Source: Candidatus Sumerlaeia bacterium (GTDB taxonomy: Bacteria; Sumerlaeota; Sumerlaeia; SLMS01; JAHLLQ01). From it: DNA of 44,553 nt. The notes beneath the pieces were generated by a model that saw only the letters and a program-made list of their open reading frames with translations, was not told the origin of the DNA and made no database searches. A program made the position numbers and the translations under genes. Positions 6,793-35,628 of this stretch are shown here, piece after piece (position 1 is the stretch's first letter; each line of letters begins with the position of its first letter). The stretch is taken from NCBI GenBank assembly GCA_028284075.1, contig JANQSL010000163.1, positions 1 to 44,553 on the forward strand, in the 5' to 3' direction.

Positions 6793-7968
6793 ATGCACGT
6801 TTTGGCCCTGACAAAGACTTCGCTTCGGATTGCCCTTGTGATCGGGTCCCTTGCTCGTGGTGGCGCCGAGGCCAACCTCATGATGCTCGCCCGGGGATTG
6901 CAAAGCCGGGGCCACGCGGTCGGCGTCTTTCTTTTGCGCTCCGAGGGACTTGGTCGTGCCGGGCTCCTTCGCGAAGAAGGCATCCAGGTGACCGAGTTGC
7001 GGGTGCCCGTTCTGAGACCCTGGTATACGCTCGGCGGAAAAGCCGGTGTTCCGGCCGCACTCCTTCGCACTCTGCGGGAATTTCGCCGCTTTCAACCGGA
7101 TATTCTTCACGCATGGCTGTTCGAGGCGGAAGTATGGACCTTTTTGGCGAAAGAGCTCGGTGCGTCGGGCCTCTTCCTAACCACGCGTCAGAGTCTTGGC
7201 TGTTACAAGGAAACTTCTCCCTGGAAGCAGCGTTTTCAGAACAGATACAATCGCATCACCCGGGCGGTGATTTGTAACTCACGTGCTGTTGCCCGCGATG
7301 TGATTGAACGCGAGCGAAACATTCGCCGTAAGCAAATTGCCGTCATTCACAGCGCCGTTGACTCAAACAACATCGAACGTGCCGTTCCGGCCAACTATGT
7401 GAATGAATTCAGTCTCGAATACCAACCCGATTTCATCGCCGTCTGTGTCAGTAATCTGTTCCACTACAAGGGGATTGCCGATTTGATTGACGCGTGGGGC
7501 CTGGTTGTTTCGGAGCATCCGCTGGCGCTTCTTGTTGTGGCGGGGAGGGACGGTGGGGCACGGAAAGACGCTTTGAGTCGAATTCGTCTGAATGGTCTCG
7601 AGAAGAATGTGATCCTTGCAGGACAACGTGCAGATGTTCCGGAGTTGTTGCGAGGCGCCGACCTTCTTGTGCATCCATCTCATGAAGAAGGTTTTCCAAG
7701 TGCCGTGCTTGAAGGCATGGCTGCGGGACTCCCTGTTGTTGCAACGAGAGTGGGGGGGATTCCCGAGGCCGTTTGTGATGGCCGGACCGGCATACTTGTT
7801 CCACCTCGGTCCCCTGAGGAATTTGCGCATTCTGTGCTGCGGATCATGACAGATCGCGACCGTATGAGGTCCATGGGCACCGAGGGAAAACGTCGAGCCA
7901 GGACTCGTTTCACTTCCCGACGCGTGATTGGCGCCCACGAAGCCCTTTACCGCAAACTCGGCGCTTGA
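6793..7968 (+). CDS. GT4-family glycosyltransferase
   Basis: Retaining glycosyltransferase of the GT-B fold, about 391 residues, probably adding a sugar to a lipid-linked or other surface glycan. The N-terminal domain opens with IALVIGSLARGGAEANL, the usual acceptor-side loop. The C-terminal nucleotide-sugar domain has the EX7E-type motif HEEGFPSAVLEGMAAGLP (about 297-314) followed by VGGIPE. The start is unsettled: the ATG at 6793 has a perfect AGGAGG only 2 bases upstream, while an in-frame TTG at 6802 has it at 11 bases. The frame upstream of 6793 lacks family-like sequence. It stands alone, divergent from the lipoprotein operon (105-base gap), far from the polysaccharide locus on the other strand. 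Confidence 0.9.
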   Translation: MHVLALTKTSLRIALVIGSLARGGAEANLMMLARGLQSRGHAVGVFLLRSEGLGRAGLLREEGIQVTELRVPVLRPWYTLGGKAGVPAALLRTLREFRRFQPDILHAWLFEAEVWTFLAKELGASGLFLTTRQSLGCYKETSPWKQRFQNRYNRITRAVICNSRAVARDVIERERNIRRKQIAVIHSAVDSNNIERAVPANYVNEFSLEYQPDFIAVCVSNLFHYKGIADLIDAWGLVVSEHPLALLVVAGRDGGARKDALSRIRLNGLEKNVILAGQRADVPELLRGADLLVHPSHEEGFPSAVLEGMAAGLPVVATRVGGIPEAVCDGRTGILVPPRSPEEFAHSVLRIMTDRDRMRSMGTEGKRRARTRFTSRRVIGAHEALYRKLGA

Positions 7969-8076
7969 CCGGTCCATTCGAGCGTGAAATCCATTGTGGA
8001 ATAGACACATTCTGAGGAGGCGGCAGCCTGCATCTTATTGGGCTGGGGCCAAAGATCATGCCGAAAGGAAGGAATC

Positions 8077-10623
8077 ATGAAAAAACCAGTTTCGCTCGCC
8101 GCTGTTTTTCTCACGGCAACAACAGCCTTTGCCGGGGCAACGGACCCTGCGGAGTTCAGGGCTGTCTACGTTCCCGTTTTCGATAACAACACGCAGACTG
8201 AGGCGGACGCGATTATCGCCAACGTGCTCGCGTCCAACATCAATCAGGTCTTCGTCCAGGTCCGTGGTCGAGCAGACGCCTACTACTATCCCAACCGTGA
8301 GGATTCAACCTATCCCAATAACGAGCCCCGCGGGGAGTTGTACACCATCAGCCCCTCCGATCTCGACTCTTTACAGTATTACATCGACGCCATGCACAAT
8401 GCAACACCTCCCCGCGAGGTACACGCATGGCTGACCACGTATAACACGTGGAATCGTTCGACGGGACCTGTCAGCAGTGCCCATGTTCTCAATGCACACC
8501 CGGACTGGATTACTGAAGACGAAGCAGGCTCGACATACGACTATAACAACGACGCACCTCTCGATCCGGGCATTCCGGCTGTTCAGGATTACCTCTACAA
8601 TGTTTTCATGGACGTCGTTCGCAACTACGATATCGACGGAATCCAGTTCGATTACATTCGCCTGCTGAATTCCGACTCCGGCTTCGACCCTGTTGCAAAG
8701 GCGCGGTTCCTTGCCGAAACCGGCTGGAACTACGACACCGACAACACCTCGGGCGAGCTCGATGAGGTGTTTGAAGCGTGGCGCCGGGATCAGATATCGC
8801 AACTCGTCCAGCGTGTTCACGAACGCACAATGCTCGAGAAACCCTGGGTGGAAGTCTCGGCCTTTCTGGTCAACTTCAGTGACTCCGTTGAAGTGCTCGG
8901 TCAGGGTTATAACTACTGGGTTGCCAACGGATTCATCGATGTTTTGCACCCCGGTTGTTACTCCAGCTCCATTGCGGGAACGATTTCGGACTGGGACTTT
9001 TACGTTTCGAAACTCGCACAGAATGGTGACGAAAACACACGGCCCATGACTGCCGCCATCGGGTCCTATCTTTTTACGGATGGGGGGAATCCAGGCTTCA
9101 ATGAGCAGGCCGTGACCGACCTTCGCGCCAATACGCGACCCACGGACGGATTTAACTTCTTCCAGCAGCGCCAGATTTTCAACGACACAACCTATGGCTC
9201 ACAGCTTGCCGACGACCTCTTTAACAGTCCTGGTCCGATGGATGGTGTCGCACCGCTTCCCACGATCGCCCACAAAGTCGCTCTGGGTGAGGAAACCACA
9301 GCGCCAAATGCGCCGGCTTCGCCCGCGGTGACTCTCAACTCCGGCGTCCCGGAGGTCAGCTTTGATCGTCCCGCCGCCGCCGGCGACAGCGATCTGCCGG
9401 TCCATTATCGCCTGTATCGCGACAGCGACGCTTCCGTCGATCTCATCTACGATAACATGGTCATGGAATGGTGGGACCTTGATTCGTCGCGCACCTCCTT
9501 CTCCTGGGACGATACGCTCGCAACAGGGGATGTCTGGTACACGATTGTCGCCTACGACGACTGGAATAATGCAGCTTCAGCGACTGTCGGGCCGGTTACG
9601 GCAATCGGAACGGAAGTGATTATCGAAAGCCACGACAACCTCGATGTTATCACAACACCCGGTAATGGTTACACACAAACCGGAACATGGTTCGGAGGCG
9701 GCAGTTCGGCCAAAAGTACCGTCCCTGGCCTGACAGGTGTTGGTTCTGAGTTCTCTACCAGTGCATCGCTGGACGCTTCCTACACGATGACACCCGACAT
9801 TCCAATCGCGGGCCTCTATGACATCTACATCACAACGCCATCCGCAGGCTCTGTCGATGCGGCCAATTCCCAGTACTCCATCACCCATGTGGGTGGCCCG
9901 ACAAACGGCACGATTGCCCTGACGAGTGCCAACACCGGCAACCAGTGGGCTCTGCTTGCATCCGGTATTCAGTTCGCCGCCGGTACGGGCGGTTCCGTGA
10001 CCGTGTCTGAAGCATCGCCTCAGGGAAACCGATTCTACTCAGACGCAATGCGGTTCGTTCTGCAAGGCAGTGCGCCGGTGTCAAAGGAACCGAAGCCCGC
10101 GGTGGTCGAAACCTCCAGTGCCGTCACCGAACTCATTGTGGATTCCACCCCTCAGGCCCTCGGCTACGATGACAACGGCAGTGTCTGGAGCACCTCGACT
10201 CTTGCCGGCTACTACAACGGAAACTCGCGTTTCTACAGTTCCGGCGGCACGTTTCCCGTTACTGATTATGCCGTCTGGGTGGTGGACCTGCCCCGTGCGG
10301 GCCGTTGGGCGATCGACGGCTGGGTACGCGATAACACGAGTTTTGCAGAGCAGGCTCAGTATCGTTTTGTCGACAGCAGCGACACTGTTCGGACGGTGCA
10401 GGCATCGCAACGATCGACAACTAACAGCACAACCACTGGCGACTGGCATATCAACGTGGATGGAGTGAACGACGCTTCCGCATACTTGTTCGACGAAGGT
10501 CGCGTATACGTGACCCTGTATGGCAACGCCGCCGGTGCCCAGACCATCATTGCGGATGCTCTTCGATTCCGTTACATCGACGACGGCTCGACGGATGTCG
10601 ATGACTGGCTGATCCTGGAGTAA
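8077..10623 (+). CDS. Secreted GHL10 (DUF187)-type glycoside hydrolase with two golvesin-like C-terminal domains
   Basis: An exported protein of 848 residues. The ATG at 8077 has a GGAAGG site and starts a clean signal peptide (KKPVSLAAVFLTATTAFAGA). Residues about 25-400 are a TIM-barrel of the GHL10 family: EFRAVYVPVF, QVRGRADAYYY, HAWLTTYNTW and DGIQFDYIRLL (about 185-195, the expected active-site strand) are all there. Residues about 410-510 resemble a fibronectin III-like module ending in YTIVAYDDWNN. Two beta-sandwich domains follow (about 515-670 and 685-835), each ending in DA(M/L)RF(V/R), typical of golvesin/Xly CBD-like domains found on bacterial surface proteins. The last residues are DDWLILE. 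GHL10 members are thought to act on glycans, but the substrate here is unknown. Transcription probably ends at the hairpin just downstream. Confidence 0.88.
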   Translation: MKKPVSLAAVFLTATTAFAGATDPAEFRAVYVPVFDNNTQTEADAIIANVLASNINQVFVQVRGRADAYYYPNREDSTYPNNEPRGELYTISPSDLDSLQYYIDAMHNATPPREVHAWLTTYNTWNRSTGPVSSAHVLNAHPDWITEDEAGSTYDYNNDAPLDPGIPAVQDYLYNVFMDVVRNYDIDGIQFDYIRLLNSDSGFDPVAKARFLAETGWNYDTDNTSGELDEVFEAWRRDQISQLVQRVHERTMLEKPWVEVSAFLVNFSDSVEVLGQGYNYWVANGFIDVLHPGCYSSSIAGTISDWDFYVSKLAQNGDENTRPMTAAIGSYLFTDGGNPGFNEQAVTDLRANTRPTDGFNFFQQRQIFNDTTYGSQLADDLFNSPGPMDGVAPLPTIAHKVALGEETTAPNAPASPAVTLNSGVPEVSFDRPAAAGDSDLPVHYRLYRDSDASVDLIYDNMVMEWWDLDSSRTSFSWDDTLATGDVWYTIVAYDDWNNAASATVGPVTAIGTEVIIESHDNLDVITTPGNGYTQTGTWFGGGSSAKSTVPGLTGVGSEFSTSASLDASYTMTPDIPIAGLYDIYITTPSAGSVDAANSQYSITHVGGPTNGTIALTSANTGNQWALLASGIQFAAGTGGSVTVSEASPQGNRFYSDAMRFVLQGSAPVSKEPKPAVVETSSAVTELIVDSTPQALGYDDNGSVWSTSTLAGYYNGNSRFYSSGGTFPVTDYAVWVVDLPRAGRWAIDGWVRDNTSFAEQAQYRFVDSSDTVRTVQASQRSTTNSTTTGDWHINVDGVNDASAYLFDEGRVYVTLYGNAAGAQTIIADALRFRYIDDGSTDVDDWLILE

Positions 10624-12510: not shown

Positions 12511-13023
12511 TCAGCCCGGCGTCTGAACCCAAGACTCAACCTCGCTTTTCCACACAACCGGGTCCAACCGGATTGGCAGAAACGCCTCGAACAGTTCCTC
12601 GACCATTCGTGAGAGATGCTGCGTTGCCTGAACCCGCATGGCCATATACTCGTCAAGATCCGGCATCTTTGGAACCGGCAGTTTGATCGACTTCAGATCA
12701 AAGGTCTCGGCATCCAGAGTGAATTGCCACGATGCATCCTGTGCCGTGAAGACAACCTTTGACCGCAACATGCGCTTCCCCTGACGCAGTGCCGCCTGGA
12801 CTTCCGGAGCGGAAGGTGCATCGTCGCCGTTGAACGTGATCTTCGTCGCCTCTCCGGTTTGCGATCCCAGCACCACCGGACCCATGAACGATATTTGCAG
12901 CCCCGGTTCCGATGGCGGAGGCGGGACGCCCTCTCCGAGCCACCGGACACACATCCACGTCAGAAAATCCGGCCCCACGGAGCCGTATCGATCCAGGATT
13001 TCCAAAACACTCAGTTCAACCAT
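12511..13023 (-). CDS. RdgC-like protein, C-terminal half (split rdgC)
   Basis: A 170-residue protein matching, from memory, the C-terminal part of the deltaproteobacterial-type RdgC family. It has DFLTWMCVRW near the N-terminus (the family has a G-x-E-F-L-x-W-L-W type motif), then a strand-rich region and LRQGKRMLRSKVVFTAQDASW, FTLDAETFDLKSIKLPVPKM, and a final helix in HLSRMVEELFEAFLPIRLD. RdgC binds double-stranded DNA as a ring and restrains RecA. The start ATG has AAGGA at 6 bases, and the frame is closed 5 codons further up, so it is a separate gene and not a simple frameshift product of the upstream one. The gap to the N-half gene is 70 bases. It acts in the cytoplasm, presumably pairing with the N-half. 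Confidence 0.72.
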   Translation of the reverse strand: MVELSVLEILDRYGSVGPDFLTWMCVRWLGEGVPPPPSEPGLQISFMGPVVLGSQTGEATKITFNGDDAPSAPEVQAALRQGKRMLRSKVVFTAQDASWQFTLDAETFDLKSIKLPVPKMPDLDEYMAMRVQATQHLSRMVEELFEAFLPIRLDPVVWKSEVESWVQTPG

Positions 13024-13093
13024 TCGTGATCCTTGTCACACAGCGCCGCGGAGTTTCACGGGGCCCTGCAGATTGTTCCGCACCAACAGGGTT

Positions 13094-13708
13094 TTATGTT
13101 GTTTCCGCCGCGGCATTCGTCAGATCGAAGTTCTCCTCAAGCCCCTGAGCCGCCATAAACTCGTATCCCAGCAGCGCAGGGAATCGCGGAGCCAGCCGTG
13201 CATCGAAGGTCGATGCAAACAAATCCATAATGCGCTCACAAAGAGCCTTTCCCGTGGCGCCAACCAAAACCTCTCCCGTGTTCAGATCCCACACCAGTTC
13301 CGTGAATGCGCTCACCGGTGAAACTTCCTTGAGCATTTCGATCGTCAACTGCTCATCCAGCGCCAGCCGATGCTGCCGCGTGAGGCGTTCCACTCCCTTT
13401 TCCCGCTTTGCCCGCGCGTGAAATTCTTCGCGCCTCGCCTGAAAGATCACCTTGCTGAAACTCTTGCGGTCCCTTCGTACCGCCAGAAACACGAGATTCG
13501 CATCCACCAGGTCTTCCCACACCAACTCATCGCTCAACACTCGCCGCGGATTGACCCAGCCGAATGATTCTTTTTCGCCACGTTCGGCGTTGATCGACTT
13601 GTATTGGTAGCGGCGCAGAGCCATTGTCGCGGTTCGTTGAAACGACTCCGGCAGCTCCGATGAAATCATGAATCGTCGTACTGAAAGCGAACCGGAGCGA
13701 AAAGGCAT
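13094..13708 (-). CDS. RdgC-like protein, N-terminal half (split rdgC)
   Basis: A 204-residue protein that matches the N-terminal half of RdgC (PF04381-like). Visible family features are the start SGSLSVRRFMI, ESFGWVNP, a basic strand LVFLAVRRDRKSFSK, a long charged helix (REEFHARAKREKGVERLTRQ), AFTELVWDLNTGEVLVGAT and the tail ASTFDARLAPRFPALLGYEF. In E. coli RdgC the corresponding segments form the DNA-binding ring and the regulator of RecA loading. The gene ends just where the intact family continues into the FLTWLW-type segment, which is encoded by the next gene. The ribosome site (AAGGA) lies 14 bases upstream of the ATG, which is long, so the start is not certain. It lies 155 bases downstream of the helicase gene on the same strand. 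Confidence 0.75.
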   Translation of the reverse strand: MPFRSGSLSVRRFMISSELPESFQRTATMALRRYQYKSINAERGEKESFGWVNPRRVLSDELVWEDLVDANLVFLAVRRDRKSFSKVIFQARREEFHARAKREKGVERLTRQHRLALDEQLTIEMLKEVSPVSAFTELVWDLNTGEVLVGATGKALCERIMDLFASTFDARLAPRFPALLGYEFMAAQGLEENFDLTNAAAETT

Positions 13709-13863
13709 TGGCGAAACGGGAATCCTTGTAAAATCGGGTCGCCGAGCAGGCGCGATGACCCCTGCGCGGTCAAGACGAGACGCTTCCGGCTCCCTTCTTC
13801 ACGACTTCACCATGAATTGTCCGCAACTGTGAAGAGAGAAACCGTATCACTTGCCGCCAGATA

Positions 13864-16248
13864 TCACGCCGTCATGGCTGACTCATCCGGAGGAAGTCTG
13901 ACCTCCTCCGGCCTCAACAGCAGTGTGAGTCCCCACCCCTGGCTGGTACGAACCAGACATGCTTCGCCTTTGAGCGACAGCCGTTTGTGCAGCTCGCGGC
14001 GGTAATAGGGAATCTGTTGCTGCTCCACTGCCGCATCCGGCCAGACTTCCGCATGAATCGTGCGGTATGGCACCGTCTTTCCCGCTCTTCGTGCCAGACA
14101 GAGCAAAAAGCGGTATTGATTGGGAGTCAGCTCCACGCGTCTTCCCTCGAATTCAACACTGCCCGTGTCTTGCGCCGGAAACACAAGTCGCCGTTCCGCT
14201 TCTCGTGCCACCGGCGTCTTCGTTGACTCGCGAGCGCCCGTTTGAACAAGCTCAGCCAGTTCCCGCGCCAGATCGGCAAACTGGTCCGACAATGCCGTCG
14301 ACCACATTGCCGCGGCTGCATCCGCCGCTGCCGATGCCAACCAAACCGCCTGTGTTGCTATACGCGCCACCCGTCCCGATGCGATTTCATGCCGCAGTTC
14401 CAGTTCGCCGACGCCCCAGCCCTCAAGCCATTCATCCATGACAAGCGTGCGGCGAGCGGCGCGATGACACGCCACCGGCGCACCTCCTGCAGGCCGGAGG
14501 CATTCCGCAAGTCGCCGCGCCAGTTCATCCTGCGCACCAATTCGTTCCATCAAACCCGTCGGCCAGCCCCGATGCCGCCGTTCCTCTCGTGTCAGCGGAA
14601 TCGAAACATCATCCCACTCCCGTGCCGTCATGACCACCAAGAGGCAGGCCGCGCGGTTTGATGCCTCCGCGCATCCGGACAACAGCCGTGCCCACTCCTC
14701 TGCCGTGTCAGATCGCAGGTTTGTTCGCGCCACGACCTCTCCCAATGCTGACAGGCGGACGACACCCCCCAGCACCTGCCAAAGCTCTCTCCGCTCTCCC
14801 GCCTGGAGGGATTCACCAAGCCGGCGTGTCATGGCGTCACGGGACGTTCTTGCGCCGAAGGATTGCAGAAACCATTGAGTCAGCAGTGATGTCGTCGTTG
14901 CCGCCCCCGAATGCACCAGATGAGCAATGTGGGATTCCAGTGCGGTTTCCGCTATGGGTGAACGGACATCTTCCGGCGGTGGCAGGATCGATTGCCGCCA
15001 GGCACGTTCCGCTTCCGCATCATCTTCGACCAGCACCATCGTTCGGCCGACTCCGTTGCCGGAACGGCCGGCGCGTCCGCCCTGGTTCAGAAACCGGGCA
15101 CGTGATACCGGCACCATTGCATGATCACCACCAAAGCTGCCCCGGCCGATCATCATCGGTGACTGCACGACCGTCGCGGCGCTCAGATTCACACCCTGCT
15201 CCAGAGTCGGTGTCGCCACGAGAACATCGATGTCTCCCTGATCGAATGCCGACTCAACAAACGTGCGTTGTTCCGGAGGCATATCCGCCGTGTGCAGGCC
15301 GACTCTCCGCGGCAGTAACTCCTCCAGCCGCTCTCTTGAGCGATCCTCCGGCAGGTTGCGAAGCGCGTCGCGCAGAATGCAATCCTCCCACCCCTCCTTC
15401 AACTTTGCCAGATCGAACGCCAGCCGGTTCGCCGAAGCCCGCGTGGGACAGAACACGATCAACGGGCCCGCTTTTGCAGACAGTGAGACCACGGCGTCGA
15501 GGTACGACGATGCCTCCGCCACGAGACTTTCGTGTCCCGACTGCGTTCCTCCCACTTCGCGCCACCGAAACGCACCGCTCTTGAGGTTCAACACGCCTTC
15601 GCGCAACGGAACGGGCCGTTGTTCCGATCGCACCACTCGCAGTCCGAGCCATTGCGCAATCTCCTCCGGATTTCCCAGAACCGCCGACAACGCAATCAGC
15701 TGAGGACGCGGAGGAGGTGCCGCCCTCCATCGGGTCAGCAGAAAGTCGATGCATGCGCCACGTTGTGCATCACCGATGATCTGAATCTCGTCGGCAACCA
15801 TCACTCCACACTGATCCAGCAGCGACGGAGCTCTGGCGATGAGCGCCTGCGCCTTCTCGTAAACCGCCACGACAAGATGCCGCTGTCCCAGAAGGATGGC
15901 TTCGTCCTCTTCGCGCCGGTCTCCGGTCGAGCAGGCCACCCGAATGCCGCAGAACTTGTAACGCTCTCTGAACTCCCGCGCCTTTTGCTCCGCCAGCGCT
16001 CGTGTCGGCACGAGATAGAGCGCGAGTTTTCCCTCATTGATGGTCCGTAGCGCCGCCAGCTCCGCCGAAAGCGTTTTGCCCGCCGCCGTTGGCGCGGAAA
16101 CCAACACGCTTTCCTCCCGAGACAGCACCCCGGTTTCCGCCAGCACCCGTTGCTGCAGCGGCAGCAAATCCGAGCCGAAGGCCGCCTCAAGGGCGGCGAT
16201 TTGATCTCCCGTGATACCCCATGCCCCCAACTCGGCAAACCGTTCCAT
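13864..16248 (-). CDS. Ski2-like DEAD/DEAH-box helicase fused to an OmpR/PhoB-type winged helix
   Basis: A 794-residue superfamily 2 helicase. Motifs in order: I APTAAGKT (52-59), Ia PTRALAEQ (81-88), II DEIQ (153-156) in place of DExH, III LSAV (187-190), IV VFCPTRASA, a HTADMP segment, V ATPTLEQGVNL (345-355) and VI QGGRAGR (389-395). This order and the QGGRAGR form fit Hel308/Ski2-like enzymes, which unwind branched DNA or RNA. Residues about 695-780 are a winged helix of the OmpR/PhoB C-terminal type: VELTPNQYRFLLCLARRAG, then a recognition-helix region with YYRRELHKRL, then VRTSQGWGLTL. That domain normally ends response regulators, so its fusion to a helicase is unusual. I start at the ATG at 16248 (GGGAG at 7 bases) rather than the TTG at 16254. 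It leads a three-gene run with the split RdgC. Confidence 0.85.
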   Translation of the reverse strand: MERFAELGAWGITGDQIAALEAAFGSDLLPLQQRVLAETGVLSREESVLVSAPTAAGKTLSAELAALRTINEGKLALYLVPTRALAEQKAREFRERYKFCGIRVACSTGDRREEDEAILLGQRHLVVAVYEKAQALIARAPSLLDQCGVMVADEIQIIGDAQRGACIDFLLTRWRAAPPPRPQLIALSAVLGNPEEIAQWLGLRVVRSEQRPVPLREGVLNLKSGAFRWREVGGTQSGHESLVAEASSYLDAVVSLSAKAGPLIVFCPTRASANRLAFDLAKLKEGWEDCILRDALRNLPEDRSRERLEELLPRRVGLHTADMPPEQRTFVESAFDQGDIDVLVATPTLEQGVNLSAATVVQSPMMIGRGSFGGDHAMVPVSRARFLNQGGRAGRSGNGVGRTMVLVEDDAEAERAWRQSILPPPEDVRSPIAETALESHIAHLVHSGAATTTSLLTQWFLQSFGARTSRDAMTRRLGESLQAGERRELWQVLGGVVRLSALGEVVARTNLRSDTAEEWARLLSGCAEASNRAACLLVVMTAREWDDVSIPLTREERRHRGWPTGLMERIGAQDELARRLAECLRPAGGAPVACHRAARRTLVMDEWLEGWGVGELELRHEIASGRVARIATQAVWLASAAADAAAAMWSTALSDQFADLARELAELVQTGARESTKTPVAREAERRLVFPAQDTGSVEFEGRRVELTPNQYRFLLCLARRAGKTVPYRTIHAEVWPDAAVEQQQIPYYRRELHKRLSLKGEACLVRTSQGWGLTLLLRPEEVRLPPDESAMTA

Positions 16249-16308
16249 GACCAAACTCCCTCAAGAATCGATGGAGGAAGAGGGTCTCACATCACCTGTC
16301 TCCCGACA

Positions 16309-31398: not shown

Positions 31399-33768
31399 TT
31401 ATGAGTGGTGAACGGGCCTGATGTGTCCGGTGGACTCGGGAAGGTCCAGGTCCTCATCACCGTGGGCAAGGCTTGTGATGCCGGAGTCGCTTCCCGGCCT
31501 GTGAGAGATGAGTTCGCGCATCTCCGTGACATAGCGTTCGGCAAGAGTGGAGCGGTCGAAGTGTCGACGGACATGCTCCGCTCCGGACCGCCCCATGGAC
31601 TCGCACAGCTCAGTGTTTCCGGCGAGAGTGACAATGGCTTTTGCGAGGGCGTCCGCGTTTTCCGGCTCAAAGACAATGCCGCCTTTTGCCGCTTTCAAAA
31701 CGGTTTCCGCCTCTCCAAGAACTCCCAGGAGGACCGGTTTTCCAAGCGCCATTCCCTCAAACAGCTTGGAGGGAAGAACGGTCTTGAAAAGTTCCGTATT
31801 GCGAAGATGCACCAGAGTGGCGCCGCTGGCCGAGATCAAAGCGGGCACCTCCCGCTTTGGGACAAGACCGGTAAAGCGCACATTACGCAGATTTCTCTCC
31901 TCGGCGATATCCTGCAGCCGGTCGTGTTCGGCTCCGTCTCCCACAATGAGAAAACGGATGCGGTCATTTGTGCGAAGCTTTTCCGCCACGTCGAGAACGA
32001 CTTCGAGGGCATGGGCCATGCCGATGGTGCCAACGTATGAAACAACGAAGTGGTCCGTCATGTCCCAGCGGTTTTTGACGGCATTCAGCTCGGATGTTGT
32101 CGGCTGGTCAAACGTTTCAAAATCGATGCCGTTTGTGATGACCGAGATGTCCTCCGGCGGAGCCGCGCCAATCTCAAGCAGCTTGCTCCGATAGCCATCT
32201 CCCACCGTGACAATACGGTCGGCTCTTTTGTACATCCATTTTGCCATGTAGCCAATGATATCGAGAAGGAATTTTTTTCGGCCCGCACCCACCGCAGCGA
32301 TGGATTCCGGCCAGATGTCGCGGATTTCCAGGATGAACTGCTCTTTGCGGAACAACGTCGCCAGCGCACCCGCGAAGCCGCAGAAGAACTGAGGGCTGGT
32401 TGCCACCATAATGTCATGCTTGCGAACGAATACCAGCGCGAGCAGCGAGGAAATCATGTATGAAACATAGTTCAGCGTGCGGCGAACCCGGCGTCTGTTG
32501 GCGGCGATGAACGTCCAGATGCGAATCACGCGGATGCCGTCAACGGTCTCTTCGTGCCAGAGCGCGTTTCGGAACCCCTTGTAGGGCCATCCGTGAGGAG
32601 CGCTGGGGACCGGGCAGATAACCGTGACTGAATGGCCTCCACGCTGCCACTGACGGGCATGCTCGTAAAGCCGGGAGGCGGGGGCGTTTACTTCCGGGTG
32701 GAAGTAATGAGACAGGAAGAGGATGCGTAACGGGCGGTCGTTGGGAGAGGCATCGTCTCTCTCCGCAAGCCGCAGCAGACAGGCGATGGGAAAAATGACC
32801 AGCATGGCAAAACTGAGGAAAATCGCAACGGCTTGAGGCAGAGACTTGGACATGTATGCGACATGAATCAAAACGCCGATTTGAAGCGTAACGATCCAGT
32901 ACATCAAGACCACCCATCGTCGCTGAAAACCGAGCTTCAACAACAGACCGTGCAGATGAGCGGGATAGTCCTGCTCCTCGCCGGCCCGCAAACGGGCAAA
33001 CTTCGCATACATGCGGTCGGCGAGAGGCGCGGCACACGCAAGCAGAGGCACTGCCAGCAGAGAAACGGTGAGTCCCCATGTCCGGGAACTGAGCGTCGTG
33101 GCCGCCAGCATGACACCCACCAGGATCTGACCGACAGACCCGAGGTGAAGATGACGATCCGCTCCGAGAAGAAAGAGATGCCCGAGGCAGATGCCGCCCA
33201 CAATCAGCGGCAGCAGGATGATGTCGCTTTGAGCCCACGCCGTCATCAGACTCAGCAGTGTCATGGACACAATCAGGACAACCCCCGGAGCAAGCCCCCT
33301 TAGTGAGTCGATCAACGAAATGGTATAGAGGATACCAACGTAGAAAACGACAGTGAGGACAAGGTCCGCCCCGTGCGTCAGCAGGCCCGGCACATCAGGA
33401 TACTTCTCCACGAGGGTGAATCGAAAGCCCAGGAGATATGCGGCAATGGCGATCGTGAATCGAAACGACAGAGAGAATTGGGTGGGGAGTTTCCAGGCCT
33501 CTTCCGCAACGGCCAGCACCACCGCCAGAAGGACAAGAAACTGCAGTCCGAGAAGATTCGGAATTTCAGCCCCCACGAACTGAAGAAACGCCAGCAGCAC
33601 CATGACGGTGCCCAGGAGACTGAAGCTGCCGACATGGATGCGGTAGACATCCCCGAGCCGTTCACGAAGCGCCGGTCGGGCGAAGATGTCAAAAAAGCCG
33701 TAAAGCGCGAGCGGCAGAACCGCCGCCAGGCCGAACATGAATGCCCATGTTTGTACGTCCATGTTCAT
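31399..33768 (-). CDS. Fusion of a degenerate WecA/MraY-like membrane domain and a WbuB-like GT4 glycosyltransferase
   Basis: A 789-residue, two-part protein. Residues about 1-350 are a polytopic membrane domain of about ten helices that aligns in order with WecA/MraY-type polyprenyl-phosphate sugar-1-phosphate transferases: the family's NxxNxxDGxDGLA appears as SLIDSLRGLAPGV, and HLHHRL appears as HLHGLLLKLGF. Several catalytic residues are missing: the DD pair is AEE, the first Asn is lost and the GDxGS segment reads GADRHLH. Residues about 365-760 are a GT4 domain: LFLSHYFHPEVNAPASRL, ILEIRDIWPESI, IGMAHALEVVLDVAE and KTVLPSKLFEGMALGKPVL, as in WbuB/WcaI-like enzymes. I start at the ATG at 33768; the frame upstream to 33840 has only a TTG. 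A 192-base gap (33769-33960) precedes it, with no gene visible. Confidence 0.85.
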   Translation of the reverse strand: MNMDVQTWAFMFGLAAVLPLALYGFFDIFARPALRERLGDVYRIHVGSFSLLGTVMVLLAFLQFVGAEIPNLLGLQFLVLLAVVLAVAEEAWKLPTQFSLSFRFTIAIAAYLLGFRFTLVEKYPDVPGLLTHGADLVLTVVFYVGILYTISLIDSLRGLAPGVVLIVSMTLLSLMTAWAQSDIILLPLIVGGICLGHLFLLGADRHLHLGSVGQILVGVMLAATTLSSRTWGLTVSLLAVPLLACAAPLADRMYAKFARLRAGEEQDYPAHLHGLLLKLGFQRRWVVLMYWIVTLQIGVLIHVAYMSKSLPQAVAIFLSFAMLVIFPIACLLRLAERDDASPNDRPLRILFLSHYFHPEVNAPASRLYEHARQWQRGGHSVTVICPVPSAPHGWPYKGFRNALWHEETVDGIRVIRIWTFIAANRRRVRRTLNYVSYMISSLLALVFVRKHDIMVATSPQFFCGFAGALATLFRKEQFILEIRDIWPESIAAVGAGRKKFLLDIIGYMAKWMYKRADRIVTVGDGYRSKLLEIGAAPPEDISVITNGIDFETFDQPTTSELNAVKNRWDMTDHFVVSYVGTIGMAHALEVVLDVAEKLRTNDRIRFLIVGDGAEHDRLQDIAEERNLRNVRFTGLVPKREVPALISASGATLVHLRNTELFKTVLPSKLFEGMALGKPVLLGVLGEAETVLKAAKGGIVFEPENADALAKAIVTLAGNTELCESMGRSGAEHVRRHFDRSTLAERYVTEMRELISHRPGSDSGITSLAHGDEDLDLPESTGHIRPVHHS

Positions 33769-33960
33769 GAATAAAAGAGCCGCCCGTCCGGAAAGTTCGA
33801 GATTTGCAGACTCGTAGTGCCATCCCGCCCACTCCCGCAAGAGCTCTCCGCCCGGAACATCGCAATCAGCGCGAACCGCTTGATTGACGTTCGCCTCTCG
33901 ACTTGACCGGAGTCGTGAGGCAACCCCACGAGCCTTTCACTTGTCACGCAAAATCCCCGT

Positions 33961-35628
33961 TTACGACCACCGAAGGCGGGTTTTGAGGGGTCCGGACGCT
34001 TTGATTTCAAATAAATTTTCGATGATTAGAATTCTGGACGATATCCGGCATCCGAATTCCGGGCAGTACCACCCGCGACTGATTCGCCCTGTTCCCGATG
34101 CCCATTCGATAGTCATTTCACCCGCAGGACCAACAACGCGGGCCGACTTGCTGCCGGCTATACTGAGCCTGCATGACGGATGGATGTGAAAGAGGCGGCG
34201 CAGCTTTTGAGGCCGCCGTGAGGTGACACGGTCCACAATCAAGAGTTCTCCTCCCTCCGGGTTCCAGGAGAAGCCTCGGCCATGCACGGGTGAACCTCTC
34301 AGATGACTGTAGCCTCCGTGACAGGCGGAGAGTCGGAAGCGATTCTGGAAATGCTCCCAGCGGATTCGGCGAGGAGAAGCTCGCCGGCCGACTCGGAAAG
34401 CGCTCCACACCTCACTCTGATTCCTGCCGTCGATCTCAAGAGTGTTGTGTGCCCGTGTTGACCGGCACCAACGGCGCATCGAGCTGTTCACATAGTCGAA
34501 AGTTCCCGAATCGACGATCACCCGATGACCGCGAATCGACAGTTCGAAAGAAAACAGGTCGGCATGAGCATGACCGGGCTGATACGAAGGGCCTGCCTCA
34601 CCGGCATCAATACAAACGTAGGTGCCATCAGCGGTTCTCGCGCCATAGTATCCCGCACCCGGCAGATTCCAGACACCCGGCGCCTCGCAGCTTGCATCTC
34701 CCTCAAGAGCACCTTGTATCGGAGCAATGCCGAATGCCGCATCGTTGAACAGTGCAATTTCACCATCAGGATGCATCAACTTTTTCAGCGCGTCACGGGT
34801 ATCCTTCAAAAGAGGCCTCACCAGACTTTTCACTTTCGGCATGCCGCAGCCATTCAGCAACTGAAGCAGGTATGAAACACGAGCATGATACATGGGTGAA
34901 CGCTCGTAGTGCATTCCATCCGGAAGGAACTGTTCTTTCAGCTCTTCTCGAAGAAGGTTGGCTCCGGTTTCGAGCCAGCGAGCGGCATCGTTGCCGTTAA
35001 AGCATGATCCGGCCAGGCAAAGTGCGGTCGCGTTTTCCAGGAGATGGTTACCCAGAAGGTGGAACTCGAGGTGAGATTCCAGCCATTTTGTCTGGCGCCA
35101 GAGGGAAGCCCAGATTTTTCCCGCAAGCTCTTCATCTCCTGCGGTGCGTTTACCATGGCGGCAAAAGAACCAGCCACACCAGTTCATCACCCGCAATGAA
35201 ACGGGATAGGGTTCCCAGCCGACCGCTCCTCTTTGCGGTGGGTGTTGCTCAATCCAGTCAACTGCGGCCTTTGCGCCTTCCTTGAAGCTGCAGGACCATA
35301 CCCAGTCGAAGTAGTGCAGGTTGTATTGCCAGAGCTTTGACGCGCCGGGAGCCTTCCAGTCCGGGGGACAACCCAGATCCCGCGCATCATTGAGAAAAGA
35401 AAAACGCCCCCGCAGGAAGTCGGGGGCCGGGTTCGGTTGTCGAGGCGGTTGATACTGAGTCTCAGGTCCCCAGCGTGTATCGGGGTAATCCGGCGGATCC
35501 TCTTTTTGAAGTACAGACGGGTCTTCAAAATGCCGGCGGACGCGATTCGCGATCTGCCATCGAATCTGACGAAAACGCAGATGGCGGACAGTTCGAAGGA
35601 GTCGTCCGGGATTGCTGAATCCGATCAC
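33961..35628 (-). CDS. Heparinase II/III family protein (polysaccharide lyase-like)
   Basis: A 555-residue protein of the heparinase II/III family. The N-terminal alpha/alpha toroid has [45 protein letters not shown] and [17 protein letters not shown]; the C-terminal beta-sandwich starts at [28 protein letters not shown], the usual catalytic region. Members cleave uronic-acid-containing glycans by beta-elimination and are often found within bacterial exopolysaccharide loci, where they may edit or release the product. I see no signal peptide. The GTG start overlaps the UXS stop as GTGA. Substrate is unknown; the sugar nucleotide next door suggests a uronate- or xylose-containing glycan. Confidence 0.88.

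Follow-up and report, generated by a model that had tools for sequence, protein, structure and literature searches.

RdgC is encoded by two adjacent genes in the genome of a Candidatus Sumerlaeia bacterium (GenBank assembly GCA_028284075.1), and these two small genes probably specify a two-subunit RdgC, most likely an A2B2 ring that would bind DNA and act on RecA. The split of the gene is real and old: it is shared by this genome, by nearly all carriers in the phylum Sumerlaeota and by several unrelated bacteria. No description of a split RdgC was found in the open-licence papers searched, and its newness is provisional. In Proteobacteria, RdgC is a ring that restrains RecA. The existence of a stable two-gene form across a phylum and in scattered other bacteria suggests that separate subunits can serve as the base and as the DNA-gripping arms of the protein; if this is true, ring assembly and ring opening could be tested piecewise. 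In addition, the second gene, which is labeled 'hypothetical protein' by annotation pipelines (e.g., on a Nitratidesulfovibrio plasmid), can now be given a name.

Organization of the locus

The window, i.e., the whole stretch of DNA analyzed here (44,553 nucleotides), is contig JANQSL010000163.1 (C263 in our numbering) of a 4.9 Mb genome assembled in 275 contigs (G000). The features of interest are as follows.

12511..13023, minus strand: RdgC-C, a separate protein of 170 aa that corresponds to the base (dimerisation) domain of RdgC and to which Pfam and NCBIfam are blind
13024..13093, minus strand: gap of 70 bases between RdgC-N and RdgC-C, with an in-frame stop 5 codons ahead of the C gene; the frames of the two genes differ
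13094..13708, minus strand: RdgC-N, a separate protein of 204 aa that corresponds to the centre and tip part of RdgC
13709..13782, minus strand: sequence ahead of RdgC-N that is conserved in the sister species (G001), in which no helicase lies upstream
13864..16248, minus strand: Hel308-like helicase with a C-terminal winged helix, a neighbour outside the RdgC unit
13930-14145: Trans_reg_C winged helix of the helicase

The three open reading frames reported in an earlier note on this DNA are all present at the coordinates given there, with 155 bases between the helicase and RdgC-N and 70 bases between RdgC-N and RdgC-C. The helicase starts at the ATG at 16248, within a longest open reading frame that begins at a TTG at 16254. 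The RdgC pair is flanked upstream by the helicase and a gene for an FG-GAP protein and downstream by a gene for an FAD oxidoreductase. The stretch 13709..13782 is possibly the control region of RdgC itself; no promoter consensus was found in it. Elsewhere in the window, at 32001-35000, the AT skew rises to 0.16-0.19 across genes for a glycosyltransferase and a heparinase II/III.

Identity of the two RdgC halves

RdgC-N is recognized by sequence as well as by fold. In a Pfam scan it matched PF04381 (RdgC) above the cut-off with an E-value of 1.3e-6, and the profile of its family aligned to residues 20-197 of E. coli RdgC (2owl_A, 4.4e-7). Its AlphaFold2 model, predicted like that of RdgC-C as a single chain (pLDDT 90), retrieved the RdgC structures 2owl and 2owy in Foldseek with E-values of 4e-11 to 5e-10. 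RdgC-C yielded no Pfam match even at an E-value of 10 and no NCBIfam match at an E-value of 1, and against E. coli RdgC the sequence profile of the C half reached a score of only 2.7 bits. Fused RdgC proteins that had been found with the N profile were nevertheless matched in their C-terminal halves by a profile built from RdgC-C, and RdgC-C is about 35% identical to a fused RdgC copy on contig C17 of its own genome. The AlphaFold2 model of RdgC-C (pLDDT 89) consists of strands plus helices and had E. coli RdgC (2owl_A) as its best Foldseek match (E-value 2.6e-4), 2owl being the sole PDB entry below 1e-3; the likeness of fold is moderate (TM 0.50, rmsd 4.3). The base domain of RdgC has been described as a five-stranded sheet plus helices (PMC11077077), and the predicted strands and helices of RdgC-C fit this description.

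Because the N half aligns to residues 20-197 of the E. coli protein and the C half matches the fold of 2owl, the cut falls between the centre and tip part and the base domain. Both parts expected of a member of the RdgC family were thus recovered, the N-terminal centre and tip part directly and the C-terminal base domain via the second gene, which bears out the earlier claim that the two genes together equal one RdgC (N by sequence and fold, C by fold and fused homologues). The single polypeptide of about 300 aa that is also expected of the family was not found, as there are two open reading frames in differing frames with a stop between them, and for this reason we speak of a two-gene variant rather than of an ordinary RdgC.

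Distribution of the split gene

Among 40 genomes of Sumerlaeota, 29 contain both halves and eight contain neither, while two have the N half only and one the C half only. The three genomes with a single half are fragmented assemblies, in two of which the gene is close to the end of a contig. The halves are adjacent in 18 of the 29 carriers, in which they often overlap by 4 bases or stand less than 20 bases apart, and unlinked in the other 11; in a genome consisting of a single contig (G015) one lies at 54 kb and the other at 1,839 kb, i.e., 1.8 Mb apart in coordinates. That the halves co-occur even where they are unlinked favours a joint function over mere gene order, and since roughly one carrier in three has unlinked halves, co-translation is dispensable. 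Recurrent neighbours were observed in one family with unlinked halves (loci L158, L160-L162, L043, L053 and L058), in which the C gene stands ahead of methyltransferase-like and glycosyltransferase-like genes and the N gene behind a gene for a substrate-binding-protein-like product.

Outside Sumerlaeota, 346 genomes were searched with both the N and the C profile. The N profile matched 14 of them, all of which also yielded a match to the C profile; one further genome (G254) matched the C profile and, on a different contig, had a weak match to the N profile. In ten of the 14 carriers the halves are split and adjacent, in one (G383) they are split and unlinked, and in three (G080, G226, G346) they are fused. 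The named plasmids found to carry RdgC, from Nitratidesulfovibrio and Geoalkalibacter, both belong to Thermodesulfobacteriota. On plasmid pDsulf-L2-2 of Nitratidesulfovibrio vulgaris, rdgC (WP_271371490.1, 204 aa) is followed by WP_271371489.1 (178 aa), which corresponds to the C half and is annotated as 'hypothetical protein'. This plasmid is mobilisable, and its split RdgC (L168, 2501-3682) is flanked by a DNA cytosine methyltransferase gene on one side and by SAVED-domain and Mov34-family genes on the other, a possible defence surrounding. No consistent neighbourhood of defence genes or mobile elements was seen.

Fused forms and trees

Natural fusions of the N and C parts were found at loci L060, L164, L062, L145 and L151 and on the Geoalkalibacter plasmid (396 aa). 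The first of these is a second RdgC of the window genome itself (contig C17, 8266-9453, minus strand; 395 aa), the N part of which is about 60% identical to RdgC-N of the window; contig C17 is phage-like, with genes for terminase subunits and an O-like replication initiator near the fused RdgC. The fused copy of another genome of the phylum (L164 in G008, 7788-8798, plus strand) adjoins a gene for a phage portal protein and has an unusual-looking C end with a repeated SIP motif. Phage genomes and viral contigs searched with the fused copy yielded no matches. A phage family of 181 positions and unknown function (phrog_13439) matches the N part of RdgC only, and some phages may, judging from this likeness, carry the N half alone.

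The N and C trees agree in their main groups, and nearly all Sumerlaeota are set off from the other sequences; the trees were built by a quick method and contain long branches, and only their broad pattern is used here. Within Sumerlaeota the N and C distances are correlated at 0.93, which partly reflects a shared species history. The split or fused state switches several times on the tree, with about five changes for the fused state, so that function could differ between branches. The two fused copies of Sumerlaeota (on C17 and in G008) nest within split host families, which suggests that fusion came after splitting there.

Taken further, the two-subunit form could be the older one and the usual one outside Proteobacteria, with the single chains of Proteobacteria and phages as secondary fusions; the ring would then be opened or loaded on DNA through the regulated attachment of N arms to a C base dimer, and the supply of subunits would be a point of control. 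The position of the two Sumerlaeota copies, beside phage genes and nested in split families, fits the part of this scenario in which fusion follows splitting, but as a whole we regard it as conceivable and rather doubtful.

A probable two-subunit ring

A monomer of RdgC consists of a dimerising base domain, a centre domain and a tip, and two monomers form a ring, the pore of which has been proposed to hold DNA; RdgC of E. coli lowers strand exchange and ATPase activity of RecA as well as LexA cleavage (PMC11077077). In the two-gene variant, the N subunit would supply the centre and tip part and the C subunit the base domain, which is the dimerisation part in E. coli RdgC. The likeliest assembly would be a dimer of C subunits bearing two N subunits (A2B2), which could close round duplex DNA via contacts of the tips in the manner of the single-chain ring and, like E. 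coli RdgC, might restrain RecA loading and strand exchange. Evidence for this reading comes from the homology of both halves, a cut that coincides with a domain boundary, the co-occurrence of N and C, trees that broadly agree, purifying selection, and an adjacency in which stop and start codons often overlap. The presence of both halves without linkage, together with their repeated fusion, is best explained if both proteins form one ring, each as a subunit of its own kind.

Two open reading frames would also be seen if rdgC were broken or mis-assembled, if sequencing had introduced a frameshift, or if read-through restored the fusion. Beyond this appearance nothing speaks for such an explanation, and it is scarcely credible given that the same split recurs in 29 Sumerlaeota assemblies and in 11 genomes from outside the phylum, and that the halves are far apart in the single-contig genome. 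Judged by their substitution patterns, moreover, both halves are under purifying selection, with a low dN/dS of about 0.05-0.11 for each half in two close species pairs (the dS between the window genome and G001 being saturated for both halves, two other close pairs were used). A read-through fusion is excluded by the in-frame stop five codons before the start of the C gene and by the frame of that gene, which is unlike that of the N gene; pseudogene and frameshift were rejected along with it on the basis of dN/dS, the differing frames and the intervening stop. It is unlikely, though less so, that the halves have diverged into independent proteins, the C half acting, for instance, on its own as a dimeric nucleoid protein and the N half working with another partner. 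Such independence would agree with the 11 of 29 Sumerlaeota carriers in which the halves are unlinked and with the family in which each half has a recurrent neighbourhood of its own; it is opposed by the near-perfect co-presence and co-absence of the halves in and outside Sumerlaeota and by the repeated fusions of N and C. A two-subunit RdgC is the preferred reading.

The neighbouring helicase

The earlier note had described the upstream gene as a Ski2/Hel308-like helicase with a fused OmpR-type winged helix, and the domain matches agree: DEAD (1.5e-28), Helicase_C (3.8e-9) and Trans_reg_C (27.1 bits, cut-off 26.2). The best NCBIfam models were of the Hel308 type (PRK02362/PRK00254), far under their cut-offs; the scores were 194 bits against 1200 for NF040935 and 267 bits against 887 for NF002654, so that the protein does not reach the score set for the Hel308 family. 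Nine relatives scanned in a valid frame carry Trans_reg_C at the C end, some of them below the curated cut-off. Helicases of the Hel308-like type that end in an OmpR-type winged helix were seen across Sumerlaeota and in some other bacteria; the whole-length model also matches four genomes outside the phylum (G178, G315, G319, G182).

The same note had proposed that helicase, RdgC-N and RdgC-C form one self-contained, co-transcribed module for repair, recombination or action against mobile elements. The three genes do lie on the same strand with gaps of 155 and 70 bases and no terminator-like site between them, and a genome of another genus (G004) has the same order with a gap of about 90 bases. 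Within the family, however, the helicase stands beside RdgC in only two of five genomes (the window genome and G004). In the sister species of the same genus (G001) the helicase, 77% identical, is on another contig and is followed by a phosphoglycerate-mutase-like gene; in G002, of another genus, 95 kb separate it from RdgC within one contig; and in G003, also of another genus, both flanks of the helicase could be read and hold other genes. The order is likewise absent from the genomes of a second family in which the upstream flank of RdgC is readable, and a search with the helicase model found no helicase beside the N-C pair at loci outside Sumerlaeota, where the genomes with a full-length helicase differ from the carriers of RdgC. 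Across the 40 Sumerlaeota genomes the presence of helicase and RdgC is uncorrelated (counts 24/5/8/3, Fisher p 0.66), with the helicase scored as present at E <= 1e-20, so that diverged or fragmented copies may count as absent. In a blastn comparison, window positions 13095-13782 were homologous to locus L032; between the window genome and G001, homology upstream of RdgC-N stops 74 bases before its start and that of the helicase stops at 13904, which places the join of helicase and RdgC between 13783 and 13904.

With close relatives that carry the helicase without RdgC beside it (an observation that the note had named in advance as refuting its proposal), a gene order limited to two of five genomes in the family and unseen outside the phylum, and uncorrelated presence, the operon or module was rejected and is very unlikely to be correct. 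The helicase is Hel308-like, of a kind common in the class, and quite likely just happens to lie upstream of RdgC in the window genome and in G004. Since two chance juxtapositions are themselves unlikely, the order may be ancestral to the family; the adjacency was perhaps inherited from its ancestor and later broken. A known anti-phage defence system was also considered and rejected, as PADLOC gave generic helicase matches alone (HamB and others) and none for RdgC-N or RdgC-C.

Comparison with known systems

The neighbouring helicase resembles Hel308/Ski2-like helicases in its best NCBIfam models and in a weak domain-4 match; it differs from Hel308 in its low scores (194-267 bits against cut-offs of 887-1200) and in the extra C-terminal OmpR-type winged helix. 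With RdgC of E. coli and Pseudomonas aeruginosa (PF04381; 2owl, 2owy) the two-gene variant shares the fold of both halves and the sequence of the N half, whereas those proteins are one polypeptide, the identity is 12-20% and the C half escapes the family model. In the 'RdgC histone' operon of Bacillus and Halobacteria, a histone gene comes first, followed by an RdgC-like gene and then by one for a membrane protein with a winged helix, and the RdgC-like protein is one chain with two extra small domains (PMC11390915). That operon likewise provides a divergent protein of RdgC fold outside Proteobacteria; its order of histone, RdgC-like protein and membrane protein was not found at the window locus, which has neither a histone nor a winged-helix membrane protein as neighbour. 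RexA of phage lambda has RdgC-like centre and base domains (PMC11077077), but is a single chain and phage-borne. The yeast Iml3-Chl4 heterodimer (cited in PMC11077077) illustrates that a hetero-assembly of the RdgC fold can clamp DNA; each of its subunits keeps both domains, whereas in the two-gene RdgC the domains sit on different chains.
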